From positions 1 to 28,687 of the IMG/VR virus record IMGVR_UViG_3300042304_001092: a DNA stretch of 28,687 nucleotides. One strand, given 5' to 3'. Made by a program: the position numbers and the translations under genes. The notes under the pieces were generated by a model that made no database searches, had not been told where the DNA came from, and saw only the letters and a program-made list of their open reading frames with translations. Source of the DNA: a virus. This document shows, one piece after another, positions 1,432 through 28,687 of this stretch. Every line of letters begins with the position of its first letter. Position 1 is the first letter of the stretch.

Positions 1432-1956
1432 TTATCCTCCGTATCCTGGGTTTTTGCCGGCCGCCAGCTCCGCGGCAGCCTTCTCCAGGCCGACCGCCAT
1501 CTCCTCGGCCAGCTTGTTCGCCGCCACCGGGCCGAACTCCTGGAGCGTCTTCTCCATCATGTTGTAGGCACGGACGCCGCCGGCCGTGCCGAACTGCAAC
1601 CAGATCGCTTTCCGCGACTCGAATCCTGCCTTGTACCCGAGCACGCCGTAGACGAATGAGTCGAACCCGCCGTTCTTTCCCGACTGCCCGGTCCTGACCG
1701 TGACGGCCCGACGAAGAGCGCCGGTCGACCGCTTCTTCTCGCCGGCCTTCCGGCGGCCTCGACGCGTGCTGAGTGGCGGAGTGTTCTTGCGCAGGATCGG
1801 GATGGCCGGCTTCATCACTCGCCGCATCGCGGCCTTCAGGTGTTTCTTTGCGATGTGATTCGGCAGCGCCTTGTAGCGAGACATCAGTCCTTGAATCACC
1901 GCGCTGGAGTCGAACGTGTTCGGCTCGAACGAGCTGTTCCATGAGAGCGAGATCAT
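1432..1956 (-). CDS. HK97 gp10-like head-tail connector / tail component
   Basis: A 174-residue, very basic protein. It contains AMRRVMKPAIPILRKN, a Lys/Arg-rich loop (RRGRRKAGEKKRSTGAL), and the YKAGFESRKAIWLQFGTAG segment typical of the HK97 gp10 / neck family. The ATG at 1956 overlaps the previous stop as ATGA. The same frame is open further upstream, but that extension is Arg-rich shadow sequence inside the neighbouring gene, so the overlap ATG is preferred. It would act in the neck between head and tail. Neighbours (gp16-like upstream, DUF3168 downstream) support the call. Confidence 0.78.
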   Translation of the reverse strand: MISLSWNSSFEPNTFDSSAVIQGLMSRYKALPNHIAKKHLKAAMRRVMKPAIPILRKNTPPLSTRRGRRKAGEKKRSTGALRRAVTVRTGQSGKNGGFDSFVYGVLGYKAGFESRKAIWLQFGTAGGVRAYNMMEKTLQEFGPVAANKLAEEMAVGLEKAAAELAAGKNPGYGG

Positions 1957-2285
1957 GTGGCCTGCTCCTCGACGGACAGCTCGAGGTCTTCGCGGTTGCC
2001 CTGCTCGACGACGGCCGAGATAAAGAGGAGCCGACCGCTGCGGGCCGGCCAGCGGAGCCGCATGTCGCCAGCGACCCCGGCGCGGTATCGGGTGTAGACC
2101 GTCGCGGAGATCCCGCCGCCGACCTGCCCGCGTCGTGCCTGCTCGGAGTAGGTCGTCGCCTCGTAGGAGCCGAGGATCGACGCCACGGTCTCCCAAGTCT
2201 CTACCGTGCCGCCTGCCGCGTTGCGCGTGCGGACGGGCCGCTCCAGGACGAAGAGCTCGCGATATCGGCCGGCGGGCTGCGGCAT
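1953..2285 (-). CDS. Head-tail adaptor (SPP1 gp16-like)
   Basis: A 110-residue protein starting MPQPAGRYRELFVLE. It has the pattern of the phage head-tail joining family: an N-terminal strand, a central TVETWETVASILGSYE strand, then EQARRGQVGGGISATVYTRY and MRLRWPARSGRLLFISAV. The start ATG overlaps the previous stop by one base (TGATG). A much longer open frame runs upstream through the neighbouring connector gene but reads as low-complexity Arg/Gly shadow. It would form the stopper or adaptor ring below the connector. Confidence 0.72.
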   Translation of the reverse strand: MPQPAGRYRELFVLERPVRTRNAAGGTVETWETVASILGSYEATTYSEQARRGQVGGGISATVYTRYRAGVAGDMRLRWPARSGRLLFISAVVEQGNREDLELSVEEQAT

Positions 2286-2845
2286 CACCAGCCCCCGTTC
2301 CACGAGCTCGCGGCGAGCAGCGTCTCGAAGGCCTGGGGCAGCTCGCCGCCGCCGTCGGTGTTGAGGACCCCGCGGTTCTCGAACTGGTGGTTCACGTAGG
2401 CCAGGAGGGCCGACCGGACCGTCGGCTCGATCACACCCCCCGGCGCGACGCCGGCCCAGTAGGTCACGACGACGCGCTCCGTCGTCGCGATGTCGAGCGT
2501 CACGGTCGCCGGGAATGCGTCCTGGTCGATCTCGTAGTCGCCAGCCGACAGCGCGACTCCGGCCACCGTGATCGCGATCGGGTAGGTGGCCGAGACCAGG
2601 ACAGGCGGGGCCGGCAGGTCGAAGACACTTCCGCCGTCCTTCCACGTCGCCCGGTACTGGGTCGCGACGAGCGTCACGGATAAACGCTTCTCGATCAGCC
2701 GGCGGGCGGCGGCGATCGCGTCGAGGAGAAACCGATCGTGTTCGTCCTGGTCCGGCAGCATGCCGACTTGAGCCTTCGCCGCGGTGAGCGAGACAGGCTC
2801 GACGACCGGCCACTGGAGAACGCGGATCGTGTGCGGCTTGCTCAT
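2285..2845 (-). CDS. Head-tail connector protein (gp6-like)
   Basis: A 186-residue protein. The N-terminal part (EPVSLTAAKAQVGM, then DRFLLDAIAAARRLIEKRL) is the helical core of the HK97 gp6 / SPP1 gp15 connector family. It is followed by a beta region with YRATWKDGGSVFDLPAPPV and a C-terminal helix VRSALLAYVNHQFENRG. These proteins form the ring that docks under the portal. It lies immediately downstream of the capsid gene as expected. The capsid-to-connector gap is 84 bases and holds a GC hairpin. Confidence 0.82.
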   Translation of the reverse strand: MSKPHTIRVLQWPVVEPVSLTAAKAQVGMLPDQDEHDRFLLDAIAAARRLIEKRLSVTLVATQYRATWKDGGSVFDLPAPPVLVSATYPIAITVAGVALSAGDYEIDQDAFPATVTLDIATTERVVVTYWAGVAPGGVIEPTVRSALLAYVNHQFENRGVLNTDGGGELPQAFETLLAASSWNGGW

Positions 2846-2875
2846 CAGTCCTCCGAGGGTCCGAATAGGCAGAGA

Positions 2876-2905
2876 GCCGGGGCCGGCATCCCTGCCAGCC
2901 CCGGC
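2876..2905 (-). terminator. GC-rich hairpin after capsid gene
   Basis: An inverted repeat has arms CCGGGGCCGGCA and TGCCAGCCCCGG around a 4-base loop; one pair in twelve is mismatched. It lies between the capsid stop codon and the connector start. There is no T-run on the minus-strand 3' side, so a classical intrinsic terminator is not supported. It could be a weak attenuator or an mRNA-stabilising end for the abundant capsid message. Confidence 0.4.
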
Positions 2906-2929
2906 CCCTGAGAGTCACAAGCCGATCGA

Positions 2930-4162
2930 TCAGCTAGTAGCCTTCGCCAGCCGACCGACGAACTCGGGGCCGTGGTTCAGAACGCCAAGGCGACTGGACC
3001 CGACGAAGAGCGTCTGACGGCTGCGGACGAGCAGCTCCTTCGCGACCGTGATCTGGAGGCCTTCCGCAGCGAGACCGACCGCAGTCGACTTCGCGAAGTC
3101 GCCGTAAAGGGCCAGCGTGGTCGCGGGCATGCCCTTGGCGAGATACACAGGAGCACCGTACACCGTCGGGACCACTCGACCGCCGCCGACCGTCATGGTC
3201 GTCTGTTGGGCGGCCCAGAGCTTCATCAGGTCGATGTAGCCGGCCTTGCTGGCAACCCACGCCCCGGTCCCCATGATGGTCTCGTCTACCTTGCCGACCA
3301 CGTCCGCGAGGTTCGCGGCGGTCGTCGAGGCGTTGAGGGCCACGGTGACGGTGTTGGGGTTGCTCGCGATCGCGGCGACCGCGGCCGGGAGGCCGGAGAT
3401 CGTCGGGCTCGACGAGTTGCCGGTGAGCCACTTCTGGTCATACCAGACAGCGAACCCGTAAGACATCCGGTCGACGAGCAGGCCAGCCACGTCGATCGGC
3501 GAGTCGGTGAGCAGCGAGTTTGAGATCGCCACCGAGCCGCCGGCCTCGTACAGGGTCAGAGCCGGACCGCTGGTCGAGAGATCCTGGTCGGTGAATGCCG
3601 CGTTCTCGGCGGCATACGAGACCGTGAACTCGCCAGACTTCGGGAGGTTGATCGTCTGGCCCTTCGGCCGGAAGACGCTCGCGAGCTGGAGGGCCACCGA
3701 CTGATACTGGAGGCGATTGATGATCGCATCATAGAGCTCGGTCACGACGTAGGAGTCGCCGTACCCCGAAACCGTCTCGCCCATAGCCCGCTTCTCGCCG
3801 CTGGCGAGACGGACCAGGAAGTCGCCGACATCGCCCGCGACCTTAGCCGAGCGGAACGCCCGGACACCGGCCCGGATGTCGGGACGACTGAAATCCTCGG
3901 GGGCCGCGGGGGCCTCGACATCACGCCTCGGCTCGCTGGCCGAAGTGTGGACGGCCCGCAGGGCTGCGAGCCGAGAATCGAGAGCGGTCTCCGACGCGGC
4001 ATCCGTGGCGACCTCGTCGGCCCGCTTCATCGCGGTCGAGAGTCGCTCCTCGATGCTCGCCTTCTCGGTGTCGTCCTTCGGCTCGATGGCCCGGAGGTCC
4101 TCGATCTGCTTCGACAGCGTGACGGATTCATCCTGGAGGCGGGCGAGCTTGGGCGACGGCAT
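2930..4162 (-). CDS. Major capsid protein, HK97 fold
   Basis: A 410-residue protein. Residues 1-100 are charged and helical (delta or scaffold domain), with EDLRAIEPKDDTEKASIEER forming a predicted coiled coil. After about residue 110 the HK97 fold begins. SYVVTELYDAIINRLQYQSV resembles the N-arm and spine helix region, VFRPKGQTINLPK and SYAAENAAFTDQD the E-loop strands, then MSYGFAVWYDQKWLTGN and the A-domain with YIDLMKLWAAQQ and TVYGAPVYLAKGMP. A prohead protease is encoded upstream and would cut off the delta domain. It makes the icosahedral shell. Hairpins lie on both sides of the gene. Confidence 0.93.
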   Translation of the reverse strand: MPSPKLARLQDESVTLSKQIEDLRAIEPKDDTEKASIEERLSTAMKRADEVATDAASETALDSRLAALRAVHTSASEPRRDVEAPAAPEDFSRPDIRAGVRAFRSAKVAGDVGDFLVRLASGEKRAMGETVSGYGDSYVVTELYDAIINRLQYQSVALQLASVFRPKGQTINLPKSGEFTVSYAAENAAFTDQDLSTSGPALTLYEAGGSVAISNSLLTDSPIDVAGLLVDRMSYGFAVWYDQKWLTGNSSSPTISGLPAAVAAIASNPNTVTVALNASTTAANLADVVGKVDETIMGTGAWVASKAGYIDLMKLWAAQQTTMTVGGGRVVPTVYGAPVYLAKGMPATTLALYGDFAKSTAVGLAAEGLQITVAKELLVRSRQTLFVGSSRLGVLNHGPEFVGRLAKATS

Positions 4163-4240
4163 GGGAGGTCCTCGTATGTTCGTGTGGTGTCCTTACCGCA
4201 CGTCACGATATGGCCGGCAGCCGCGGCAGAATCTCGCAGG

Positions 4241-4257
4241 CGTCCTACCGTAGGACG
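4241..4257 (-). other. Short perfect hairpin before capsid gene
   Basis: The arms CGTCCTA and TAGGACG are fully complementary around a CCG loop, immediately after the stop of the Cys-rich gene and about 80 bases before the capsid start. No T-run follows on the minus strand. It may mark an RNA processing or stabilising element that separates the capsid message from the inserted cassette. The rest of the 96-base gap shows no gene. Confidence 0.35.
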
Positions 4258-4258
4258 A

Positions 4259-4579
4259 TCAGCGGCAGGTTCCGGTCGTGCAGGTCACCGGCTTGCCCTT
4301 CGCCCGCTCCGCTTCGCACCGCTTGCACTTGCACGAGCAGCGCTGCTCGATCCGTCCGTCGGGCTTCCAGATCCCACGGACGCACGTCGACCCGCAGTCG
4401 CATGCCGTGGGCGTAGGCCCCGGAGGAGCCGGCGGGGACGGGGCCTCGGTGAGCATGGACGCCCGAGCTGCGGCGACCGCGGCCGCCGCCTTCGGGGCCT
4501 CGAGGTCGACGGCCCGCGGGTCGGCTGAGAGCCAGACCAGCAGGGCGACGAACGCGTTCCAGATACCAGAAAGCGACAT
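4259..4579 (-). CDS. Membrane-anchored Cys-rich small protein
   Basis: A 106-residue protein. Residues about 6-20 (IWNAFVALLVWLSA) form a hydrophobic segment. An Ala-rich helix and a Pro-rich linker (PSPPAPPGPTPT) follow. The C-terminal 45 residues hold nine cysteines (ACDCGSTC, RCSCKCKRC, TCTTGTC). This is the build of an exported, disulfide- or metal-stabilised protein tethered by its N-terminus. The start directly abuts the previous stop (TAA-ATG). It is the last gene of the inserted cassette before the capsid gene. A spanin-like or envelope-disrupting role is possible but not shown; no family recognised. Confidence 0.7.
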   Translation of the reverse strand: MSLSGIWNAFVALLVWLSADPRAVDLEAPKAAAAVAAARASMLTEAPSPPAPPGPTPTACDCGSTCVRGIWKPDGRIEQRCSCKCKRCEAERAKGKPVTCTTGTCR

Positions 4580-4834
4580 TTACCACCCCCTAGCGTTATC
4601 GACGATCGGGTAACCGTCTTCACCGACGCGTGCCGTGTGGGCGAGCCGGTGGTCCGGCTGCGGATCCTCGGGAGGCTTCTCCGCAAGTAGGGAAAACCAG
4701 AGCAGGGTCCGGGCTGCGGAAGCGATCCACCGGACGACCGGCCTTGGGGTGGGGTTCGGCGCTGCCGACGACGAGGCGAGCCAATAGCCTACGGCCAGGG
4801 CGACGACGACAGCGGTCACGAGACGGCGATCCAT
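4580..4834 (-). CDS. Small membrane protein of the protease cassette
   Basis: An 84-residue protein with an N-terminal membrane helix (LVTAVVVALAVGYWLA), a Pro-containing turn, a second hydrophobic stretch (IASAARTLLWFSLLA) and a hydrophilic C-terminal tail. ATG at 4834 is preferred because GAGGG lies five bases upstream. A GTG at 4846 overlaps the previous stop as GTGA and would add four residues. It lies between the C1 peptidase and the Cys-rich protein genes. It could be a holin-like or accessory lysis protein, or help export the peptidase; function unknown. Confidence 0.65.
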   Translation of the reverse strand: MDRRLVTAVVVALAVGYWLASSSAAPNPTPRPVVRWIASAARTLLWFSLLAEKPPEDPQPDHRLAHTARVGEDGYPIVDNARGW

Positions 4835-4842
4835 TGCAACCC

Positions 4843-5952
4843 TCACGGGGTAAGTGTGTCGGCGATAGTTTCAGGCGGAGCAGGTGCTAGCCAGTTGCCG
4901 TTATGAAGATCGCGCCAGCCGAAGCCGGCGACGGAGCCCACGGCGAAACTATCTTTCGCCCGGAGCATGGATTCCACGACGGACCGCTTCACCCAGAACG
5001 ACCCGTCGGGCTGGTCGGACGGAAACTTTCCCTTGTAGGTGAGCCACCGCGGGCCCCAGCTATTCAGGCACAGGAGAGCGTCCGAGGGGCTGCCGTTCTT
5101 CTGGTAGCGGACCGCCACGAAACACATCTGATGGGCCCACTGCCCGGACGCGGCCGCGTAGCCCTGGGCGTCGGTCTGCGACGCGAAGCCCTGCATGCTG
5201 GCGACCGGAATCGGGAACCCGGCCTCGATCGCGGCGGCGGCCTCGGCCCAGGTCGTGACGAGGGCGACGTGCCCGGCCGGGTGTTTCTTCGCGAGCGTGT
5301 CTAGCTTGCCGCCGTCGCCCTGCCCGCCGTTGCCGTAGGCTCCCCAGCTCTTCGCCCGTTGGGCGGAGTAGGCCCGGAGGTCGTGCCCTCCGATCTGCTC
5401 GCGGTAGACGACGCCCCAGTCGCGGACCCAGCGGGCCGCGGCGGCGCCGTAGGATCCGTCGGAGTAGCCGCCCACCGGGGACGAGCCGTCGCCCGATCGG
5501 CCGCGGGCCTCGACGCGAGACCCTCCGTAGATCGCTTCGGTACTCGGGAACGGCGGAGGCTGGGCCAGGCGGCCGGTCTCCCAGTCGATCGCCTGGGCGA
5601 TCCAGATTCCGTGAGCCCATCCCCAGGAAACACAATCCCCGATTCCCTGCCGCTCGACTACCCACGACCTCCCGTAGAGGGCCTGGTGTGCCTTCACGGC
5701 AGAGCGATAGAGGAACGTGTCGACGCCCTTGGCCTCGCGGACCGTCTCGGCCCCGGCCTGCCGGAACAGCGGCTCGGGCAGCTCGGCCAGGAACAGCTCG
5801 ACGCCTTGCGGGTCGGGCCGGTATCCGTAGTCCTCGCTGGCCGGCTGGCCGGCCAGGCGTGGGCCTCGGTCGAGACCGCCGACGATCGCGGCGACCGCGA
5901 GCCCGAAGAGCAGGGCGACAGCCAGCCAGCGGAGGGTCTTAGCGTGCGGCAT
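4843..5952 (-). CDS. Papain-family (C1) cysteine peptidase, membrane-anchored or secreted
   Basis: A 369-residue protein. Residues 7-25 form a signal or membrane helix (LRWLAVALLFGLAVAAIVGG). The C1 catalytic set is visible in order: Gln102 (oxyanion hole) and Cys107 in RQGIGDCVSWGW, His274 in WAHQMCFVAV, and Asn297 in CLNSWG. These are established papain-family signatures. ATG at 5952 has GAGGG nine bases upstream; a GTG eight codons earlier is an alternative. The gene overlaps the upstream membrane-protein gene by 14 bases and sits between prohead protease and capsid genes. The signal helix argues against a role in capsid maturation. An attack on envelope or surface-layer proteins, as a lysin or exit factor, is the inference. 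Confidence 0.88.
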   Translation of the reverse strand: MPHAKTLRWLAVALLFGLAVAAIVGGLDRGPRLAGQPASEDYGYRPDPQGVELFLAELPEPLFRQAGAETVREAKGVDTFLYRSAVKAHQALYGRSWVVERQGIGDCVSWGWAHGIWIAQAIDWETGRLAQPPPFPSTEAIYGGSRVEARGRSGDGSSPVGGYSDGSYGAAAARWVRDWGVVYREQIGGHDLRAYSAQRAKSWGAYGNGGQGDGGKLDTLAKKHPAGHVALVTTWAEAAAAIEAGFPIPVASMQGFASQTDAQGYAAASGQWAHQMCFVAVRYQKNGSPSDALLCLNSWGPRWLTYKGKFPSDQPDGSFWVKRSVVESMLRAKDSFAVGSVAGFGWRDLHNGNWLAPAPPETIADTLTP

Positions 5953-6487
5953 CGGCGGCAGCCCTCGCGATGTCACGGTAGGCGGAGATCCAGGCGGATC
6001 TCTGGGGCGGCGTCAGCGGGCCGCCGGAGATGCCGGCAGTCGCGTCGAGGTGTGCTTTGATCGCCTCGCGGGCTCGCGGGTGTTTCTCTCCGAGCGACAC
6101 TCCGCGACATCGCAGCTCGCGGGCCCGCTGGCGGAGGTCGTCGACCGCGACGCCTGTCCGGATGAGCTGCTCGGGTTGCATGCCGTCCCACTCGATCTCG
6201 GATGCGAGCTCTTCCATCAGGGCCGAAACGGTCGCGGCGTCGGCCGCGGCATCCGGACCGACGAACGTCCCGCGGAGATTCAATCCTCCGGGGGCAGGGC
6301 CGGGAGCTGGTGTCGGAGCCGGGGCCGGGCCTGACGAGCTCCATGCAACCGCGGCGGCCGCGAGCAGGGCAGCCCCGACAACGTGTCGCCGTTCCAGGGC
6401 CGGGAGCGACACGTCACCGATCAAGGCCTTCACGCGGTCGCCGGCAAACAAGTAGGCGGCCGTGGCGATCAGGAGGGCGACGATCAT
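5939..6487 (-). CDS. Two-helix membrane protein with Pro/Ala linker
   Basis: A 182-residue protein: hydrophobic helix at 2-15 (IVALLIATAAYLFA), second hydrophobic helix at about 36-50 (VVGAALLAAAAVAW), then a Pro-Ala-Gly linker (GPAPAPTPAPGPAPGG) and a mostly helical soluble C-terminal domain (65-182). Its ATG overlaps the previous stop as ATGA, and its end overlaps the C1 peptidase start, so the three genes are translationally coupled. It might be a holin-like pore former or an anchor for the peptidase. No family recognised. Confidence 0.72.
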   Translation of the reverse strand: MIVALLIATAAYLFAGDRVKALIGDVSLPALERRHVVGAALLAAAAVAWSSSGPAPAPTPAPGPAPGGLNLRGTFVGPDAAADAATVSALMEELASEIEWDGMQPEQLIRTGVAVDDLRQRARELRCRGVSLGEKHPRAREAIKAHLDATAGISGGPLTPPQRSAWISAYRDIARAAADAAR

Positions 6488-6861
6488 CGGGCGATTCTCA
6501 CGAGGGGAAGGAGCTGCTCGAGCACGCCGCCGGCCAGAGCGAGAACGAGAGAGCGGACCGCGGGCCGGGCCAGGATCCAGAGCGGATAGACCGCCAGCGG
6601 GACGGCCCGGTCGGCGACGGCATCGAAGAGTCGAGCGACGGCGTCGATCGCCAGGGCTTTTTTCTCAGCCCCCGAGAGCGTCGACACGGAGTCGAGAGCC
6701 GACACGACCAGGCGGAGGAGCGCGAGGAGCAGCTCACCGAACTCGGACCAGGTCAGGCCGTCGGCGGCCGCGACCTTCGCCGACGCTATGTAGCTCGTGA
6801 TCTTGTCCAGGAGGCCCGGGTGGTCGACGGCCTTGGTGATCGGGACGGTCGTGATGCTCAT
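6484..6861 (-). CDS. Amphipathic/hydrophobic small protein (holin candidate)
   Basis: A 125-residue protein. The N-terminal third is soluble (MSITTVPITKAVDHPGLLDK). Residues 40-60 (EFGELLLALLRLVVSALDSV) and 80-122 (PLAVYPLWILARPAVRSLVL, then LAGGVLEQLLPLV) are hydrophobic or amphipathic. The chosen ATG overlaps the stop of the zinc-ribbon gene as ATGA; an upstream same-frame extension is Arg/Pro-rich shadow. The size and the hydrophobic C-terminal half make it a holin candidate next to a secreted peptidase gene, but it matches no holin family I can name. A membrane-associated structural protein is the alternative. Confidence 0.68.
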   Translation of the reverse strand: MSITTVPITKAVDHPGLLDKITSYIASAKVAAADGLTWSEFGELLLALLRLVVSALDSVSTLSGAEKKALAIDAVARLFDAVADRAVPLAVYPLWILARPAVRSLVLALAGGVLEQLLPLVRIAR

Positions 6862-7016
6862 CGCGTTTTTCTTCTCCAGACCTGGGCGGCGGTGACGACC
6901 TGGCGGCGACGCTGGCGGCAGTCCTGACAGGTGACGTATCGGACCTGGCGGTCGCCGGCCCGCTTGCTCGACTCGACGCGGCATCGACCGCCGCAGCATG
7001 GGCACTCAGCCGGCAT
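6858..7016 (-). CDS. Mini zinc-ribbon protein
   Basis: A 52-residue protein, MPAECPCCGGRC at the start and TCQDCRQRRR in the middle. The CPCC...CQDC pairs, 23 residues apart, form a rubredoxin- or zinc-ribbon-type metal site like those in small phage transcription or DNA-binding proteins. The C-terminus is very basic (RRRQ, WRRKTR). Its start lies 11 bases inside the end of the protease-HAD gene, and its TGA overlaps the next ATG. It could bind nucleic acid, or be a translational relay between its neighbours. Function unknown. Confidence 0.7.
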   Translation of the reverse strand: MPAECPCCGGRCRVESSKRAGDRQVRYVTCQDCRQRRRQVVTAAQVWRRKTR

Positions 7017-7995
7017 GGATCCTCATCCTGGCGACGGCCGCCGCCGCCGCGGCCCGAGCCCCGAGGAGCGTCGAGACCTTGAACGATCGAGCGACATCGG
7101 CAGGCGACGGAGCCGCGACAATCCCCTCGGGGTAATCGTCGACCCACACGTCCACCGTCAGGCCGGCGGCGGCCGCGGCGTCGCGCTTCTGGGTGTTCGA
7201 CCCGCAGAGGATCAGGTCGGAGACCTCGAGGTCCGCGAACGCGAGCCGCAGCTCCTCGCGGTTGGCGTCGTCGTTCTCGCGTCGCGAGATACAGACGACC
7301 TTGTTTCCGGCGGCCGTTGCCATGCCCACGAACGACCGCCACAGGCCAGGGGCCGCGGTGAACGTCCGATCGTAGTCGAGGGAGATCAGCAGCCCGCGGC
7401 CCTCGGCCCTGTGCTGGAGTAGCCCTCGGGCTGCCTTCCAGGCAGACAGGGAGCGAAGGCCGACGGAGCTGGACGGGTAGGCGGCGTGCGTCACTGGCGA
7501 CACGTCGAAGATCGCGGCCTCGGTGATCGTCCGCGTAACGTTGCCGGTCGGATCCTCGTCCCACTGCTCGCCCCGGGCCTCGGTCAGCGCGAACGCGAAC
7601 GAAGACCCGAAGACGTAGCGGTCTCGGATCAGGGGCACGACCTCGGCCGTGGTCGGCGTGCCGACTGGCGGGGTCGCCCGGAAGACGAGGCCCTTGGCGT
7701 TCTCCTGGATGTCGAGCGTGCCGTTCGTGGTTCGCCCGAGGACCGCGGAGTCCATGTGATTAAACTTCGCGACCACGTCGGCCGGGCCGCGTGGGTCGTT
7801 CGGTGAGCGGTCGAGGTACTTGCGGAACGCCCCCGGCATGAACCGCTCCTTGAATCCGCCGAGGTCGACCGACCATTTGTTCCATGGAGGGGCGATCCCG
7901 ACGATCACGGGCCGGCCGTCGTCTCGGGTCTCCAGGCGGAGCTCGACATCGGGGTCGTTCGCCTGGGAGAGATATCGGGTTTCAACTTGCGACAT
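7006..7995 (-). CDS. Prohead protease fused to HAD-like phosphatase domain
   Basis: A 329-residue protein, against about 180-220 for ordinary U35 prohead proteases. Residues 1-185 are the protease: FKERFMPGAF, the catalytic His80 in KFNHMDSAVLGR, and the catalytic Ser at 131/132 in YVFGSSFAF. Residues 198-300 look like a full HAD domain. Motif I is LDYDRT (Asp207, Asp209), motif II Ser237 in VCISRR, motif III Lys270 in NTQKRD, and motif IV Asp286/Asp287 in WVDDYPE. ATG at 7995 has GGAG six bases upstream and overlaps the portal stop by 14 bases. The protease cleaves capsid and scaffold; the HAD substrate is unknown. The fusion is within one uninterrupted frame. Confidence 0.88.
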   Translation of the reverse strand: MSQVETRYLSQANDPDVELRLETRDDGRPVIVGIAPPWNKWSVDLGGFKERFMPGAFRKYLDRSPNDPRGPADVVAKFNHMDSAVLGRTTNGTLDIQENAKGLVFRATPPVGTPTTAEVVPLIRDRYVFGSSFAFALTEARGEQWDEDPTGNVTRTITEAAIFDVSPVTHAAYPSSSVGLRSLSAWKAARGLLQHRAEGRGLLISLDYDRTFTAAPGLWRSFVGMATAAGNKVVCISRRENDDANREELRLAFADLEVSDLILCGSNTQKRDAAAAAGLTVDVWVDDYPEGIVAAPSPADVARSFKVSTLLGARAAAAAAVARMRIHAG

Positions 7996-9565
7996 CGTTC
8001 TCTCCGTCAATGGGGCTGGCCGACAGTTCAGAGACTCGCTTTCCGACCGTGAACTCGGTCGGCTCGCCGTTCAGGTGGACGCGAATCGACGCGGCGGGGG
8101 CGTCGGGCGTGGCGACGATCGCGAAGGGCGAGCCCTCCACGCCGAGAACGCCGTCGGTCATCAGGTGCTCGATCGTCCCGTCGCCTCCGTCGAAGTAGAC
8201 GTACTGGCCGACGGTGAAGCCGCCCGCCTGGTCGACGCTCTCGCCGCCGCCGTCCTCGGGGACGGGATCTGCCGGTGCGGTCGTGGTGTCCGCGGCGACA
8301 GGCGGCGCGACACTCGCCTGGGCTGCCGCAGCGTCGAGCGTGGAGAACCCAAGCTGGACGAACGTCTCGTTCGCCGCTGGCGTTTCAAGTAGTGGGAAAT
8401 CCTCGCGGTCGCGGATTTCGTTCGGTGTGATCGCGCCCATGTTCCATAGGGACTGATACAGGGCAGCCCGGCCAGCGGTGTCGGCCCGAAGGACTCCGCG
8501 GGTGTCCAGCTTGCAGTACACGTCCTCGCCGTAGACCGGCTGGAGAGCCATGTCAATCGGCGACTCGATGCGCTTAGCCCACGGAAGCAGGCACCACACC
8601 TGAGCGCTCAGGTGTTCCTGTTCGACGTTCGAGTATCGCGCCATCTTCGCGTCGCCGAGCAGCGTCGAGGGGACGCCCCAGTGTCGACACACGTCGGGGA
8701 GGATCGCGTCCCGCAGCTCCTGAAACTGCGACGCCTCCATCGAGTTGGACTCGATCGGCTTAAGTCTCGTTTTCTTTGGCAGGACCGCGGCCTTTCCGCG
8801 GTTGCTCGCGCCGCCGTAGACCTCCGCGAGCATGTTCCGCAGCGCGTCGACCGCCTCGTCGGGGACCTTCTCGTCCGTCTCGAGGACCATGTCCGGGCGC
8901 GCGCTGTTATCCCAGAACGCGGTCGCCGCGGTGTCGAGCCGTTGGGCCAGCCGGATCGATGTCGCGCACATCTCCGAGGGCGCGTGCCCGACGATTCCGT
9001 TGTCTGAGATCCAGCGCCAGTGGAGTATCTGTTGCTGCGGGATCGGCTCCCACACACCGCGATCGTTCCAGAACTGGTACGTCAGCGAGTAGTCGGAGTT
9101 TTGCTCCACCTTGACGCGGCTCGGGTGTAACGGGATCAGGCTCGACATCCAGCCGCGATCGCCGGACAGGATCCTCGCGTAGCCGTTTCCGTGCAGCGCG
9201 GTCCAGTAGGCCTGGAGGACGTAGAAGTCGAACGCGCTCTGCCATCGATTCGGTCTCTTCCTGAGCGTGTAGGCGGCCGGCAGGTCGGCCTTTACTCGCC
9301 GCCCGGCTCCGTCCTCTCGCATTACCTGGAGCGGACAGATCGCGACAGCCTGGGCGATCCATCGGCAGACCCCGAAGATCGAGGACACGCGGACGGCCGT
9401 CTCCGGCCCGACGTAGCTGGTCGAGATCGCCCCGAGCGTGTTGGTCGTGCCCAGGCTCTCGGCCCGGAACGACACGACGCGTGGGGCCGCGGCGGCCTTG
9501 GCCGGAGTCCGGCGACGGCTGCCGCGGCCTCCGGAGGCTGCCGGCTTTTGGGGCTGCTTGCGCAT
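7982..9565 (-). CDS. Portal protein, HK97 family, with extra C-terminal domain
   Basis: A 527-residue protein. After a basic N-terminus (RGSRRRTPAKAAAA) come the HK97-portal landmarks: SSIFGVCRWIAQAVAICPL, YWTALHGNGYARIL with PLHPSRVKV, EPIPQQQILHWRW, FQELRDAILPDVCRHWGVP, and the stem/clip LWNMGAITPNEIRDREDFP. Portals of this family usually end soon after that last block (about 400-430). Here a further ~100 residues follow: a Pro/Ala-rich linker, then a compact beta-rich domain from about residue 445 (VGQYVYFDGGDGTIEHLMTD ... ASIRVHLNGEPTEFTVG). It forms the dodecameric DNA entry channel. It lies between TerL and the protease gene, as is standard. Confidence 0.92.
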   Translation of the reverse strand: MRKQPQKPAASGGRGSRRRTPAKAAAAPRVVSFRAESLGTTNTLGAISTSYVGPETAVRVSSIFGVCRWIAQAVAICPLQVMREDGAGRRVKADLPAAYTLRKRPNRWQSAFDFYVLQAYWTALHGNGYARILSGDRGWMSSLIPLHPSRVKVEQNSDYSLTYQFWNDRGVWEPIPQQQILHWRWISDNGIVGHAPSEMCATSIRLAQRLDTAATAFWDNSARPDMVLETDEKVPDEAVDALRNMLAEVYGGASNRGKAAVLPKKTRLKPIESNSMEASQFQELRDAILPDVCRHWGVPSTLLGDAKMARYSNVEQEHLSAQVWCLLPWAKRIESPIDMALQPVYGEDVYCKLDTRGVLRADTAGRAALYQSLWNMGAITPNEIRDREDFPLLETPAANETFVQLGFSTLDAAAAQASVAPPVAADTTTAPADPVPEDGGGESVDQAGGFTVGQYVYFDGGDGTIEHLMTDGVLGVEGSPFAIVATPDAPAASIRVHLNGEPTEFTVGKRVSELSASPIDGENDVAS

Positions 9566-9604
9566 GGAGCCAGTATCAGACCGGCCCCGCCGGCAGAATC
9601 TCTC

Positions 9605-11248
9605 CTAGATCAGCCGGATCTTCCAGTCGTCGAGGCTTGTGGCCCCTCCGGAATCCTCGTCCGTCGACGCCAGCGCGAGCGCGTTGACCAGGGCCGCGAT
9701 GCCGTCGATCTTCTCCGTCGACTTCGACTTGTCCGGTTTGATCGCCCCCGTGGGGTCGGTGTAGACGCAGACGTTGTTCGCGTTCCACTGGGCCACGGGG
9801 TTCGCGCCGTGCCTAAGCCGCTTCTCGACGACCAGGGCCTCGAGGAGCTTACAGGGCGCGTTGAGGTACGAGGTCCGCTGCGGGATGTCTTTGGTCGTGA
9901 TCCCCTCGCGCTGGAGCAGCGTCTCCAGGGCTCCGGCCTGCCACGGGTCGCAGCCGGCGGCCTTGATCTCGTGAGTCTGCCCATACGCGATGATGTCGCG
10001 AGCGACACACTCGTGATCGAGTCGGTGCCCGTCGGTGACGATCACCCAGCCGTCTCGGATCCATGAGTCATAGGGAATACCCTCGCGGACTCGGTCGGCC
10101 ACCGTCTCGCGTGGGACCCAGTAGCGCCACTCGACGGAATAGGACCCGTCGGATTCCTTGAACACGAAGGCGGCCGCGGTCATGTCGAGGTTCGACGCCA
10201 GGTCGACCCCGACCCAGCAGGGCCGGCCCTCGGTCGGGTCGAGCGGCCCGGCAGAACACTTCGACCAGTCGTCGCCGTGAAACCAGCGAGCGTCGGCAGC
10301 CTGCCAAACATTCAGGGAGTATCGGAGAAACTTGCTCATCTTCCGCGGGTCGGTCGTCGCGTCCTGGTAGTCGGCCGCGAACTCGTCTTCGGGGAACGCG
10401 ACCCCCATGGAGGGATTGGCTTTCCGCCAGACCTTCGGATCTGAGAAGTCGTCCGCCTCGTCCGCCGCGTAGATCAGACCGTAGAACGTCGGGTTCGCTT
10501 TCGGGTCGGCGAGAACGAGCTCGCAGTCCTGCCACCAGCGCCAACCGATTCCGTTTCGATCGGAGCCTGCCGTCGAGATCGAGATCACCATGCCGTTGGC
10601 CGTGCCGCGCGTCGCGTAGATCAACGCGTCGACCAGGTCCGGGGATCGGAAACTATGGATCTCGTCAAGGATCACCGATCCATTCAATCCCTCGTTCCGC
10701 CACGAGTCGGAGGATAGGCAGCGGATTTCTTTCCCGGTCTCTCGGTTCCGGATGATGCTCCGCGAGTCGACGACCTCGAGGAGCTTCGAGAGCGTGGGCG
10801 AGGCGTCGACCGACTGCCGAACCATCCGATACATGGTCCGGGCCTGGAGTCGGTCGTTCGCCGCGAGGAACACGTCCTGGGCCGGGGCGTGACAGGTCGC
10901 CATGTACTGGGCGAGCTGCGACATCAGCGACGACTTTCGATTCTTCTTCGGGACAAAGATCCCGGCCCGCCGAAACCTAAGGCGGCCGTCCGGTCGACGC
11001 CAGCCGAACAGCGGGCGAAGGACTCGCTCCTTCTGCCACTCGATCAACTCGACGTGTTTCGGATCGCCGCCTCGCTCGTCTGGGTGGCGGCAGAGCTGCT
11101 CGATGAACTCGACCGGGGCCTGGGCCGCCTCCTCGTCCCACTTGTAGCCGGCCAGGTATTCGGGCCGCTTCTTCGGGTCGCGCTTCTCAGCCGCGGACCG
11201 AGAGCCGGGCGAGGATCGCGGTTTCCGGGTCGGAGTCTTCTTTGCCAT
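9605..11248 (-). CDS. terL: Terminase large subunit
   Basis: A 547-residue packaging motor. The ATPase domain has a Walker A-like VPKKNRKSS (about 99-107) and Walker B VILDE (192-196) followed by IHSF. Coupling residues lie around SISTAGS. The nuclease domain carries Asp349 (GVDLAS), Asp434 (GCDPWQ) and Asp515 (EKIDGIAAL), the three-acid RNase H-like set. This matches the Terminase_1 / HK97-type large subunit. AGGA lies eight bases before the ATG, which is inside the end of the TerS gene (62-base overlap). With TerS and the HNH gene beside it, cos-type cutting is likely. Confidence 0.95.
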   Translation of the reverse strand: MAKKTPTRKPRSSPGSRSAAEKRDPKKRPEYLAGYKWDEEAAQAPVEFIEQLCRHPDERGGDPKHVELIEWQKERVLRPLFGWRRPDGRLRFRRAGIFVPKKNRKSSLMSQLAQYMATCHAPAQDVFLAANDRLQARTMYRMVRQSVDASPTLSKLLEVVDSRSIIRNRETGKEIRCLSSDSWRNEGLNGSVILDEIHSFRSPDLVDALIYATRGTANGMVISISTAGSDRNGIGWRWWQDCELVLADPKANPTFYGLIYAADEADDFSDPKVWRKANPSMGVAFPEDEFAADYQDATTDPRKMSKFLRYSLNVWQAADARWFHGDDWSKCSAGPLDPTEGRPCWVGVDLASNLDMTAAAFVFKESDGSYSVEWRYWVPRETVADRVREGIPYDSWIRDGWVIVTDGHRLDHECVARDIIAYGQTHEIKAAGCDPWQAGALETLLQREGITTKDIPQRTSYLNAPCKLLEALVVEKRLRHGANPVAQWNANNVCVYTDPTGAIKPDKSKSTEKIDGIAALVNALALASTDEDSGGATSLDDWKIRLI

Positions 11249-11666
11249 TCGTTGAGTCCTGCGGGATTCGGGCCGCGGAGGCTGCCGTCAGTCCGAAGTC
11301 GCGACACAGTGTGACGAAGTCGCGACGCGAGTCACGGAGCAGCTTCGCGACCGGGCTCGCGGCCTGGCCCTTGTCGGTGGCGGTGACGAAGCCCTCCGCG
11401 AGGACCTGGTCCTCGAGCTGCCGGATCTCGGCATGGAGCCGGCAGAGGATCGCGAACGAGTCGGCCTGCTCGGGGAGGAGCCTGGAGTCGGCGATCAGGA
11501 TCGGGGCGACGCGGGCCCAGTAGGCGGCGGCCGCCGGGACGGCCGACACGCTGGCCGGGATGTCGACCCGGCCGGCAGGCGCGGCCGATTCCTGGCGGTA
11601 CATGGTGTTTCTACGGCGTTTCGATTCGGAGCTGCCGGGCTTCGGGGCCGGACCTCGACTTCCCAT
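11187..11666 (-). CDS. terS: Terminase small subunit, P27 family
   Basis: A 159-residue protein beginning MGSRGPAPKPGSSESKRRR, the typical N-terminus of P27-type small terminases. The body has a helical DNA-recognition region (WARVAPILIADSRLLPEQAD, then LCRLHAEIRQLEDQVLAEG) and the SPVAKLLRDSRRDFVTLCRD block near the end. It recognises packaging sites on phage DNA and activates TerL. GGGGAG precedes the ATG by about ten bases, spaced by a short A/T tract. Placed between HNH and TerL genes as in HK97-like phages. Confidence 0.88.
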   Translation of the reverse strand: MGSRGPAPKPGSSESKRRRNTMYRQESAAPAGRVDIPASVSAVPAAAAYWARVAPILIADSRLLPEQADSFAILCRLHAEIRQLEDQVLAEGFVTATDKGQAASPVAKLLRDSRRDFVTLCRDFGLTAASAARIPQDSTNGKEDSDPETAILARLSVRG

Positions 11667-11755
11667 TTTTTAAAACTCCCCAGATATTCGCGCCGAGGCA
11701 CCATGGGGTCTTCCGTCCTTTTTTGGCCTGCCGGCCGACCCCACCCCCTTTTCGA
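11667..11755. other. Intergenic space HNH-terS, candidate cos region
   Basis: The 89 bases hold no convincing gene. They contain a G/C block with GGCC/GCCGGC palindromes (around 11727-11741), an A6 run and a T/A tract directly before terS. In HK97-like phages with an HNH gene next to the terminase, cos lies close to terS, so this space is a candidate. That is inference only: no 9-12-base cohesive sequence can be recognised by eye. Confidence 0.25.
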
Positions 11756-12052
11756 TCACAGTCGCCCCCTTCGCCGCTGCTCGGCCCTGGTCTTCGTTCC
11801 GTGGCACGACTGGCACAGGGTCTGTAGGTTCGCGTCCTCGTCCGTCCCGCCCTCCTCGAGGGGCTGGACGTGGTCGACGTGGGCGGCCTGGCCGTAGACG
11901 ACGCGCGAGCAGGCACGACACACGAACGCGTCCCGCCGGAGGATCCGCAGCCGCCGGGCCTTCCAGTCGGCGGTCCGGTAGTGGGCGACCTCCTTCGTCG
12001 CGGTCGTGCGGGCCATGGTATGCGGCCTCCAGCGTTCGACGCGGTCCGGCAT
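11756..12052 (-). CDS. HNH endonuclease (terminase-associated)
   Basis: A 98-residue protein with the full HNH fold: CRAC (first Cys pair), AAHVDHVQPLEEGG (the HxxDH core), the Asn of DANLQTLC, and CQSCHGTKT (second Cys pair plus the following His). This pattern matches the small HNH proteins beside terminase genes that help TerL cut cos in HK97 and related phages (established). ATG at 12052 has AGGA five bases upstream. ATG at 12016 has GGAGG nine bases upstream and would give an 86-residue protein; both keep the whole domain. Confidence 0.9.
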   Translation of the reverse strand: MPDRVERWRPHTMARTTATKEVAHYRTADWKARRLRILRRDAFVCRACSRVVYGQAAHVDHVQPLEEGGTDEDANLQTLCQSCHGTKTRAEQRRRGRL

Positions 12053-12059
12053 GGATGTC

Positions 12060-12383
12060 CTAGCTCACAGGGCTAGGAGACTCTGGCGGCAGGAGGGCGA
12101 GGGCGTCAGCCAGGGGCAGCACCTCCACCGCAGGCAGCAGCACCTCCATGTCGGCGTTCGCCCACATTTCATGCAGATACCCACCCGGCTCCGTTGCGAT
12201 CAGGATGTCGGCGGTGAGCATCAGTCGCCCATCGGAGAGCGGCACAGGCGTGGCACGGCAATCGGGCCTGCCGTGTTCCGCGTGGAGTTCCGCGAGGCGA
12301 GCCGCAAGGGCAGGGGCGAACACTAGGGCGTGCTCGCAGCCCCATTCGTAGGTGATGGGCAGTGTGATGTCGGAAAGTGTCAT
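12060..12383 (-). CDS. Acidic small protein after tail-fibre gene
   Basis: A 107-residue protein beginning MTLSDITLPITYEWGCEHAL. It is rich in Leu, Ala and acidic residues and ends in a Pro/Ser tail. The ATG overlaps the adhesin stop as ATGA, so it is co-translated. Small genes in this position after a fibre gene often encode fibre-assembly chaperones, but the sequence itself does not prove that. Its upstream same-frame extension is alternative-frame shadow of the adhesin gene. Confidence 0.65.
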   Translation of the reverse strand: MTLSDITLPITYEWGCEHALVFAPALAARLAELHAEHGRPDCRATPVPLSDGRLMLTADILIATEPGGYLHEMWANADMEVLLPAVEVLPLADALALLPPESPSPVS

Positions 12384-23650: not shown

Positions 23651-24129
23651 GGCGGCCGGCACCCCGGCCCGCGGAGTGTCCCCTCGTTCAGTTCCGGCCA
23701 CAGGGCCTCGGAGTGGATCGCCGCGAGTAGGCCCCAGGCCGCGTGGGCGAGATGCTCCTCGGAGCGGTCGCCTGCCAGGTGGCGGTAGATGTGCCGGAGG
23801 GCGTGGTTCAGGAGGTCATGGACGGGCATCCCGGCCTCCCAGTTGAAGTCGCTGTATTTCGCGGCCCCCTCCGCACACGTCCGGGCGACGGCCTCGAGGC
23901 CGATCGGTGAGATCAGATCGTAGCGGGTCGCCTCCGCGTCGCTCGACCTCACGGCCCCCGTCTGGAATCGCACCGTCCCGCCGTCCGTCGTCTTCATGGT
24001 TCGCTCCTTCAGCTCTCGGATCATCGCCAGAGCGAACGAGGCTAGAGTCCCTCCGGTGCCAGTCCAGCAGTTAGCCGGACCGATCCGGCGGCAGAGCTGC
24101 TCCGCGGCCTGGAGGTCGGCGTCAGTCAT
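23611..24129 (-). CDS. dATP/dGTP diphosphohydrolase-like protein (DUF5664)
   Basis: A 172-residue protein. From about residue 45 it is a DUF5664-type domain: MKTTDGGTVRFQTGAVRSSD, RYDLISPIGLEAVARTCAEG, AAKYSDFNWEAGMPVHDLLN, HALRHIYRHLAGD and EEHLAHAAWGLLAAIH, with conserved His and Glu positions. The family is annotated as the N-terminal domain of dATP/dGTP diphosphohydrolases. The first 44 residues (TDADLQAAEQLCRRIGPANC) form an extra segment. An internal ATG at 23997 has AGGAG six bases upstream, so a shorter product is likely too. The ORF start overlaps the previous stop by eight bases. It may adjust nucleotide pools. Confidence 0.8.
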   Translation of the reverse strand: MTDADLQAAEQLCRRIGPANCWTGTGGTLASFALAMIRELKERTMKTTDGGTVRFQTGAVRSSDAEATRYDLISPIGLEAVARTCAEGAAKYSDFNWEAGMPVHDLLNHALRHIYRHLAGDRSEEHLAHAAWGLLAAIHSEALWPELNEGTLRGPGCRPPLDGSGQGEPGGT

Positions 24130-24409
24130 GGATCCGATACCGGAGGGACCACAGAATCCGGGCCAGATCCCGGCCAGCGCCCGAGACGGTCTCCTCGGCC
24201 AGGTCCGGGAATAGCTGGTGGATCGCCTCGTGGATCTCCGTCTCCAGCCGGGCCCGGCCGCGGAGCCGATCGTCGATCAATACCTTCCGCTCGAGGTCGG
24301 GCCGCCGCTCGTCGGGCGTGATCGACCAGCCGGCGGCCCGGCCCCGGAGGCGGGCATACCTCCACAGGACGCGGAGGCCGCGGATGGTGAAGTGATGGTC
24401 GACGCTCAC
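24122..24409 (-). CDS. Mini HExxH putative metallopeptidase
   Basis: A 95-residue protein: VSVDHHFTIRGLRVLWRYAR at the start, then RKVLIDDRLRGRARLETEI and HEAIHQLFPDL (HExxH) followed by AEETVSGAGRDLARILWSLR. HExxH followed by a helix with Glu (AEE) is the minimal zinc-protease pattern. Small phage proteins of this build are known, but their substrate is not. It starts at a GTG that overlaps the phosphoesterase stop as GTGA. It could also be a metal-binding non-enzyme. Confidence 0.72.
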   Translation of the reverse strand: MSVDHHFTIRGLRVLWRYARLRGRAAGWSITPDERRPDLERKVLIDDRLRGRARLETEIHEAIHQLFPDLAEETVSGAGRDLARILWSLRYRIHD

Positions 24410-25893: not shown

Positions 25894-26223
25894 TCAGGCG
25901 GGCGGGTCAATCTTGGGGCCGGCCGTCGACCCGGGCGACATTCCCAGCCAGGCACCCGCGGCATTCATGGCCGCCTGTCTGCCGTCGCACCCACAGGGGC
26001 GGCCGACGACGGCGGAGACTCGCTCCTTCGTGACGCCGATCGCCGACAAGCCGGCGGCGACCATGTCGCCCAGGCCGGGCCTGGCTCGCGGATATGCCGG
26101 GTGCGTCTCGTCAACCGTGAGCGTGTCGCCGTCCTGCCTCACGATGCACGTTCGCACGCCGTGGAGCGTACATCCTCTTTCGCGGCAGCGTTGTTCAAGG
26201 TGTGAAATGTGACAGATGATCAT
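25894..26223 (-). CDS. Cys-rich small phage protein (CGC end motif)
   Basis: A 109-residue protein. N-terminal MIICHISHLEQRCRERGCTL HGVRTC gives four cysteines, then a beta segment (VRQDGDTLTVDETHPAYP). A helix (GLGDMVAAGLSAIGVTKERV) and CGCDGRQAAMN follow. The ATG overlaps the previous stop as ATGA. A tail-region or late-gene accessory role is suggested by context only. The 55 bases after it hold no gene. Confidence 0.66.
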   Translation of the reverse strand: MIICHISHLEQRCRERGCTLHGVRTCIVRQDGDTLTVDETHPAYPRARPGLGDMVAAGLSAIGVTKERVSAVVGRPCGCDGRQAAMNAAGAWLGMSPGSTAGPKIDPPA

Positions 26224-27104
26224 GGTAGCGGGTTTAGGTCACGGCACTGCCTCCGGCCAAACCGTATGGTCGTGGCGAAGGAGTCCGACAAACAGTCAAA
26301 GTTGCTTAGGCCGACCGAAAAAGAAGGGTCTCCGGAGTTGTTCGAGTTTTCGTCCAGCTCGTTCTCCCATGCGCCAAGGCTTGTCCCTGACTGCGAAACG
26401 GTCAGGTCGAGCGGAAAAAAATCGGCAGGAGGAAGTAGCCGGAGGGCAGTGTCGGAAACGAAGTCGCACTTTCTATCCAACTGCTCGACACCGCAAACCC
26501 TGTCTAACGGAAAGAGTAAACTTCGCGTGCGTCTACGAAAGTAAACTTGCCCTGCGCTCTGCCTGTGGATTGCCACAAACGTGATAATGCTAGCGAACAG
26601 GTCCATCTGAACTGTCGGAACACTTGGAATAAACCTACACTGTAATCCCGATATGACGGTGGCCCCGTTGTACCGAGCCTCTGGGTCTCCTGAACAGTTG
26701 GCGTAGCCAAAGCTACCCACCGCCATAGATAAACCGATCCCGAGGTTTCCCGTGGAAGTACCAAACCCTGCCTGGCTGTTTATGTTGGCGCTACTCAGTG
26801 TTTTCTCGCGGATTTCTATCAACCCTACGCCAAAACCATTGAGCGAACACGACGAGTCGCATGTGTCAAACCGACAAATGTCGTGAACGTGAGAGGTGTT
26901 GGTGTATGACTGCCCAGGACAGACTCCGTAGGTCTTATTAAAAAGCGTCGCGTTTTGTCCGTTGCAGGACTGATTTGCTGAAGCCCCCATCCAGACGCCA
27001 CTAGCCAGGACCTGCGGAGACAGAATCTGCATTGTGTAGCTACACCAGTCCGGGCAGTTTATGCAGACGCTCGGGCAGCACGCACACCCAGGCAGCAGCA
27101 CCAT
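26220..27104 (-). CDS. Cys-rich tail protein, low GC
   Basis: A 294-residue protein with a Cys-dense start (PGCACCPSVCINCPDWCSYT) and more Cys pairs (CRFDTCDSSCS, ANCSGD). Middle segments such as AGFGTSTGNLGIGLSMAVGS and GATVISGLQCRFIP are beta-rich. The C-terminus (FFPLDLTVSQSGTSLGAWEN, then ELDENSNNSGDPSFSV) resembles adhesin or minor tail domains. The Arg-rich segment YFRRRTRSLLFP looks out of character, so a frameshift or natural oddity is possible. ATG at 27104 has GGAG seven bases upstream. The A/T-richer sequence stands out from neighbouring genes. Confidence 0.68.
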   Translation of the reverse strand: MVLLPGCACCPSVCINCPDWCSYTMQILSPQVLASGVWMGASANQSCNGQNATLFNKTYGVCPGQSYTNTSHVHDICRFDTCDSSCSLNGFGVGLIEIREKTLSSANINSQAGFGTSTGNLGIGLSMAVGSFGYANCSGDPEARYNGATVISGLQCRFIPSVPTVQMDLFASIITFVAIHRQSAGQVYFRRRTRSLLFPLDRVCGVEQLDRKCDFVSDTALRLLPPADFFPLDLTVSQSGTSLGAWENELDENSNNSGDPSFSVGLSNFDCLSDSFATTIRFGRRQCRDLNPLP

Positions 27105-28337: not shown

Positions 28338-28687
28338 TCAAAACTCCGCGACAGCGAAGCCCTCGTCGGACGTGTTGGCGGCGATCTCCTCAAGGACCCC
28401 GAGCTGCTGTTGCTGCACGTCACCAGCCCCGCCCCGCATGATCCGGTACATTTCCGCGATCCCCTCGCTCGTGCGAGAGTCGATCCCCTTGATCGCCTGG
28501 GCCACGTCGACGACGACCGTCTGTTTCAGCTCGACGGGCTTGTTCGACGCCACGTCGATGGTATTGGCCGAGGCCTCGGCCTTCGCGACCGACGCGTCGA
28601 GGGCCGTGACGAGCGGCCCGGCGATCGCCTGGCCGACCGTGCCAGAACTCTCCCCGAAGGCCCGGTCGAATCCCGCGTTCATCTGCT
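28338..28687 (-). CDS. Tape-measure-like protein, C-terminal part (partial)
   Basis: The frame is open at the right edge (CAG codon before the first visible Met at 28682), so this is likely the end of a longer gene. The visible 114 residues are helical and polar: MNAGFDRAFGESSGTVGQAI, VTALDASVAKAEASANTIDV, LKQTVVVDVAQAIKG, ending QQQQLGVLEEIAANTSDEGF. Helical Ala/Gln-rich ends and the place before tail-tip genes fit a tape-measure protein, which sets tail length and carries the DNA exit channel. The start and length lie outside. Confidence 0.6.
   Translation of the reverse strand, partial: QMNAGFDRAFGESSGTVGQAIAGPLVTALDASVAKAEASANTIDVASNKPVELKQTVVVDVAQAIKGIDSRTSEGIAEMYRIMRGGAGDVQQQQLGVLEEIAANTSDEGFAVAEF

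Follow-up and report, generated by a model that had tools for sequence, protein, structure and literature searches.

The closest described counterparts of the locus analysed here are the holin-endolysin(-spanin) cassettes, including those with signal-anchor-release (SAR) endolysins. These are compact late modules in which small membrane proteins accompany one exported enzyme. Depending on the phage, the enzyme is signal-anchored, carries a lipoprotein signal or has no signal at all, and the cassette is exchanged as a unit, independently of virion type. In Mu, the endolysin is located upstream of the terminase. Moreover, papain-like or related cysteine peptidases act in lysis in the case of CHAP, NlpC/P60 and the pseudomurein endoisopeptidases PeiW and PeiP. 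Here we describe a five-gene block, HOL-TM2-PAP-SM-CYS (Table 1), that resembles the holin-endolysin cassettes in its compact build, its types of export signal and its exchange as a unit, down to a position upstream of the terminase in Mu-like prophages, and that is built around PAP, a predicted papain-fold cysteine peptidase. The block lies in IMG/VR virus record IMGVR_UViG_3300042304_001092, the whole of which (28,687 bases, probably a fragment) is referred to as the window. We consider it probable that planctomycete phages use this block for lysis, with an exported papain-like cysteine peptidase in place of the peptidoglycan-hydrolase endolysin.

The original prediction, made from the window alone, saw a cassette of six overlapping genes between the prohead protease and the capsid gene. 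All six open reading frames are present on the minus strand and overlap or abut: HOL and TM2 share 4 nt, TM2 and PAP share 14 nt, and SM and CYS are adjacent. Conserved co-occurrence had been set beforehand as a check, and five of the genes do recur together, in the order HOL-TM2-PAP-SM-CYS in nearly all of approximately 80 relatives. The zinc-ribbon gene has to be removed from the cassette. It is a head-side gene present with either of two cassette types, A (with PAP) or B (see below), and also stands in relatives without the type A cassette. The five-gene block occurs in three unrelated settings, the first being the HK97-type head operon of the window and its relatives. In three phages of an unrelated virion type (G009, G017 and G020, with a GpA terminase, a lambda-family portal, Phage_portal_2, and Phage_capsid_4) the same five genes follow the tail genes beside the integrase, and in Blastopirellula (B. 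marina)-type prophages the block is found upstream of TerL and the portal gene. The block is an independent module, not a head function.

Moreover, a second module that also encodes a protease takes the place of this one in a one-for-one exchange, which is firmer ground than the original prediction had guessed. In a portal-based scan, 30 relatives extended far enough downstream for the cassette to be judged, and all 30 carried one, type A in 25 and type B in 5. All five type B relatives keep HOL, but a different group of genes separates it from the capsid gene. Two of them, L222 and L290, are near-identical to the window outside the cassette by blastn (Table 1), and the swap in L222 has its limits at the stop codon of CYS and at the HOL end, so that exactly TM2-PAP-SM-CYS is replaced. 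The type B cassette (seven genes plus HOL) spans 10472-13626 of L222, is also found in L290, L294, L297 and L340, and occurs at no fewer than 95 viral places. HOL is kept in type A loci, in the B. marina prophage and in 72/83 type B loci; no locus carried both cassette types. On a portal tree of 73 proteins (50 A, 23 B) the cassette type changes at least 6-9 times. An ever-present function supplied by either of two interchangeable modules is as expected of an essential late function. The type B protein PAP-B has Q76, C82, H234 and D252 invariant in 19 relatives. Its profile matched neither PAP nor any sequence in the PDB, its model was of low confidence (predicted local distance difference test, pLDDT, 31), and it was not found in 392 planctomycete genomes in a search without a positive control.

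PAP is numbered here from the ATG at 5952, a GTG start at 5976 also being possible. The catalytic set named in the original prediction, Q102-C107-H274-N297, is exact in its numbering, and all four residues are invariant in 27 aligned relatives that are 64-86% identical to the PAP of the window. They sit in RQxIGDCxSxG, WxH and NSWG-type motifs. For the wider family we used 53 representatives at 70% identity, together with control loci; here the catalytic Q, C and H are present in 53/53 and the N in 49/53. PAP is under purifying selection, with a ratio of nonsynonymous to synonymous substitutions of about 0.16-0.22, like the portal gene. The AlphaFold2 model (pLDDT 76; predicted template modelling score 0.77) gave its best match to xylellain (Z 19.9 over 237 residues; Foldseek E 5e-8), with Z scores of 17.1 to pro-papain and 16.7 to Cwp84. 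By the order of its four catalytic residues and its modelled fold, PAP is a predicted papain-fold peptidase. We file it as such, rather than as a C1 member, because neither the window PAP nor its aligned relatives matched PF00112 (Pfam C1) above the gathering score; a distant relative, L087, gave E 0.0029, below the cut-off. A search of PDB sequences with the PAP profile found no match, and the kinship to papain is visible by fold comparison only. The N-terminus differs among phages, in some of which PAP is signal-anchored, in others lipoprotein-like or devoid of a signal, and by a simple hydropathy/lipobox rule an export signal is present in 23/53 representatives.

The genes around PAP code for proteins that likewise look exported or membrane-bound. 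TM2 is directly upstream of PAP in 29/32 strict hits of its hidden Markov model, for which the first round only was used as further iteration drifted onto CYS and SM. Several planctomycete versions of TM2 are lipoprotein-like, with lipoprotein-type signals in L085 and L211. Across the wider family, the product of the gene immediately upstream of PAP has the look of an exported protein in 42/52 cases (8/76 controls, p 2.7e-16), a small transmembrane protein lies five or fewer genes upstream in 29/44 (24/67 controls, p 1.7e-3), and an exported Cys-rich/CxxC protein lies downstream in 20/53 (1/56 controls); genes at these distant loci were called with a home-made Python caller and small ones may be miscalled. 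The DGxxIxxxxGW-type tail of SM is preserved in alignment even in the B. marina prophage. CYS, described in the original prediction as a membrane-anchored nine-Cys protein, does have a hydrophobic N-terminus, but this is not a clear transmembrane helix by our hydropathy measure. In Blastopirellula-type prophages the CYS slot is taken by an exported thioredoxin-fold protein, with thioredoxin matches at L083, L084 (PF13899, E 5.5e-7), L085 (PF00085, E 1.3e-6) and L148 (PF00085, E 3.6e-9). HOL had been called holin-like. It has only two borderline hydrophobic stretches, at 41-59 and 96-114 (mean hydropathy 1.64-1.69), and as a putative holin it had no Pfam or PHROG family match that would tie it to a known one; weak holin PHROG matches came from adjacent genes of more distant phages (L148, E 0.0098; L143, E 0.08). 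We also observed that DnaJ-like Cys repeats (CxxCxG...PCxC) are common to exported proteins of both cassette types, adjoining thioredoxin or trypsin domains. They are found in CYS of the window and in downstream exported proteins of L211, L214, L085 and L222, and may form a binding domain or serve thiol exchange.

No peptidoglycan-degrading lysin had been recognised in the window, and as far as tested this holds. Pfam scans of the window, of G003 and G004 and of the unmatched proteins of eight further genomes returned no peptidoglycan hydrolase among the matches listed. The search was extended to 26 PAP-bearing records of up to 221 kb, in which Amidase_2, SLT, M15_3, Phage_lysozyme and NLPC_P60 were absent and M23 gave one below-cut-off stretch (G819); none of the six families was therefore present above cut-off, while control genomes gave positive matches. 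PAP itself matches no known peptidoglycan-hydrolase family. Within the literature covered, a search on planctomycete phages and papain-type endolysins found no match to the cassette, and a survey of lytic proteins from viruses, published in 2025, mentions neither papain nor planctomycetes.

We identified 594 PAP relatives in a first scan of viral contigs and 447 with a wider profile, two sets that may overlap. Among 50,697 cultured-phage records there was no match to the window PAP, to four distant members or to PAP-B. The family is present in the host genomes of B. marina DSM 3645 and several planctomycete metagenome-assembled genomes (MAGs). At E 1e-15 it was found in 12/391 other Planctomycetota genomes and in 0/397 genomes of the phylum used for comparison, to which a MAG titled Pseudomonadota belongs; this supports the planctomycete-type hosts suggested in the original prediction. 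Many of the planctomycete hits lie inside megabase contigs beside phage genes, as with integrated prophages. For the window's own clade the host is assigned by kinship and by one binned MAG contig (L082). Two contigs of 206-221 kb, 3300024509_000007 (L120, L130) and 3300024358_000009 (L123, L128), each carry two PAP loci and could be either pieces of host DNA that contain a pair of prophages or large phages that possess the locus twice.

The original prediction was of a protein-digesting lysis module. Its lysis part is favoured by the conserved module, the membrane and exported partners, the planctomycete hosts and the lack of a recognisable murein lysin, whilst digestion of protein is one of two possible substrates. 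The varying signal of PAP adds support because endolysins vary likewise. These data suggest that, for many uncultured planctomycete viruses, cleavage of peptide bonds may be the way in which the host cell is burst. In such a scheme HOL and the exported partners would be made from the late operon, and the signal anchor of PAP (in other members a lipoprotein signal or none) would insert the enzyme in the inner membrane, where it would be kept inactive. It would be freed or activated once HOL and the partners disturb the membrane, and would then cut peptide bonds in the load-bearing envelope, either in wall or surface proteins or in the stem peptides of peptidoglycan. The Cys-rich or thioredoxin-like partner could deal with disulfide bonds, whether in the enzyme or in the wall.

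As to the substrate, the planctomycete wall was for a long time described as a disulfide-bonded sacculus made of protein (as cited in PMC2754498), and was later shown to include peptidoglycan (PMC4432640). Peptidoglycan peptides are as possible a target as a protein layer because planctomycetes have peptidoglycan (PMC4432640), and the trypsin-like enzyme of the type B cassette tilts the balance toward protein, though not decisively. We tentatively raise the possibility that the target of lysis is not peptidoglycan but a protein layer held together by disulfide bonds, which would be digested, with help from thiol-disulfide chemistry, by at least two unrelated and freely exchanged protease modules. 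If true, this would be a lysis principle undescribed for phages in the literature searched.

Several points weigh against a protease lysis module. Planctomycetes have lysozyme-sensitive, diaminopimelic acid (DAP)-containing peptidoglycan sacculi, so that a protease need not suffice (PMC4432640), and a cultured planctomycete phage is reported to exit without lysis (PMC10945688). HOL falls short of a recognisable holin, and a classic spanin pair was not found. In the main clade the module lies inside the head operon, an unusual place for lysis genes. Lysins from families other than those six, or with strongly diverged sequences, could have escaped detection, and the virus records searched are linear fragments without a completeness estimate. 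Moreover, the papain likeness of PAP-B, possibly a second papain-like protein, is seen in the order of its motifs only, and we regard it as a lead.

Within the lysis reading, PAP might be an ordinary endolysin, namely a papain-fold endopeptidase of peptidoglycan cross-links with a role like that of NlpC/P60, CHAP and the pseudomurein endoisopeptidases. Other papain-like clan members cleave peptidoglycan (PMC10318531) and planctomycete peptidoglycan offers DAP (PMC4432640), but PAP has the Q-C-H-N set found in C1 proteases and not the NlpC/P60 set, and the alternative module brings a secreted trypsin-like protease, of a family acting on proteins; we find this variant somewhat doubtful. Outside lysis, the exported protease, anchored by its membrane partners, could act on the infected cell or lysogen by trimming receptors or surface proteins, and so remodel the host surface or exclude superinfection. 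A signal-anchored or lipoprotein enzyme with membrane partners, carried by temperate phages with an integrase, would fit, and frequent exchange of module type would suit diversifying immunity functions. Nevertheless, A or B is present in all of the informative relatives, unlike optional moron genes, the module lies in the late operon with HOL common to both types, and the Pfam and six-family searches left no other lysis gene candidate, making this role unlikely. More improbable still is a non-lytic release module, by which the protease and membrane proteins let particles exit while the cell survives. Such exit is reported for one planctomycete phage (PMC10945688), but there is no evidence of the cassette in that phage, and multi-gene membrane/enzyme modules upstream of the terminase or after the tail genes resemble lysis cassettes. 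Lastly, a virion-associated PAP that digests the envelope at entry or processes capsid proteins is the least probable of all: the window clade does carry PAP between the prohead protease and capsid genes, and some distant signal-less members stand beside scaffold/capsid genes (L090), but 23/53 representatives have an N-terminal export signal, the neighbours look exported, a dedicated S78 prohead protease is present and the block lies away from head genes in G009, G017 and G020, and a prohead/capsid protease role was rejected on the N-terminal anchor, the separate S78 enzyme and the occurrence outside head operons.

Table 1. Genes of the module and its flanks in the window, and gene order of the type B cassette
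Feature	Coordinates	Strand	Description
HOL	6484..6861	-	125 aa, hydrophobic/amphipathic; first module gene; common to cassette types A and B
TM2	5939..6487	-	182 aa; hydrophobic anchor at the N-terminus, a linker rich in proline and a conserved exported domain
PAP	4843..5952	-	369 aa; predicted papain-fold cysteine peptidase; N-terminal signal anchor, residues 9-27
SM	4580..4834	-	84 aa, single transmembrane segment; C-terminal DGxxIxxxxGW-type tail
CYS	4259..4579	-	106 aa; hydrophobic N-terminus and nine-Cys repeat
Zinc-ribbon gene	6858..7016	-	52 aa; flanks the module, outside it; weak Lar-like match (E 0.0011)
Prohead protease S78 with C-terminal domain (upstream flank)	7006..7995	-	PF04586, E 2.8e-28
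HK97-type major capsid protein (downstream flank)	2930..4162	-	PF05065, E 8.3e-24
Block exchanged for type B in L222/L290	4263..6513	n/a	Flanks 94% (1442-4262) and 91% (7019-12084) identical
Type B cassette after HOL, in order			91 aa; 79 aa (transmembrane); 125 aa exported; 289 aa PAP-B
Type B cassette, continued			258 aa exported, Cys-repeat and Trypsin_2 (E 6.7e-20); 106 aa (transmembrane); 102 aa (transmembrane and coiled coil)

The window holds a minus-strand HK97-type late operon, replication genes and an integrase. Comparison with the relatives G003 and G004 places its left and right ends on the flanks of the tape-measure region, and it seems to lack roughly 2 kb (the tape-measure region) of a circle of ~31 kb; with its ends (1-213; 28338-28687) on either side of that region, the record resembles a circularly permuted near-complete genome. 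Outside the module, the C-terminal extension of the prohead protease (residues 204-305) matches families of unassigned function, phrog_4256 (E 2.9e-15) and phrog_4919, and begins in DxD fashion with SLDYDRT, reminiscent of HAD phosphatases. A 95-aa protein at 24122-24409 has a HEAIH zinc-metallopeptidase-like motif, is kept in G003, G004, G015 and G001 and has no Pfam match. Late in the tail region, at 26220-27032, is a Cys-rich protein with similarly placed Cys-rich counterparts in G016 and G012.

Planctomycetota are abundant, and the PAP family is large, matches no cultured-phage record and hardly any curated family, so that the lysis genes of a whole virus group may be unannotated. What must be cut for a planctomycete to burst would be a direct functional test of the dispute between protein wall and peptidoglycan, and an exported papain-like enzyme active against planctomycete envelopes would offer a tool in a phylum that is hard to study by experiment. 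Set against the holin-endolysin cassette, the putative lysis module described here differs in its predicted papain-fold enzyme, in having no recognisable holin family or classic spanin and in its Cys-rich or thioredoxin-fold partner. CHAP, NlpC/P60 and PeiW/PeiP belong to other families with other active-site sets, and no NLPC_P60 match was found in the 26 records. Papain itself has a Q-to-C spacing of 6. PAP shares with peptidase family C1 (xylellain, 3ois) the predicted fold, the Q/C/H/N order and the NSWG motif, but differs by a Q-to-C spacing of 5, its phage-borne location and its dedicated exported partner TM2. Cwp84, the S-layer protease of Clostridioides difficile, is likewise an exported C1-type protease at a cell-surface protein layer and similar in fold (see above), but it is host-encoded, builds the S-layer and lies outside any phage module.

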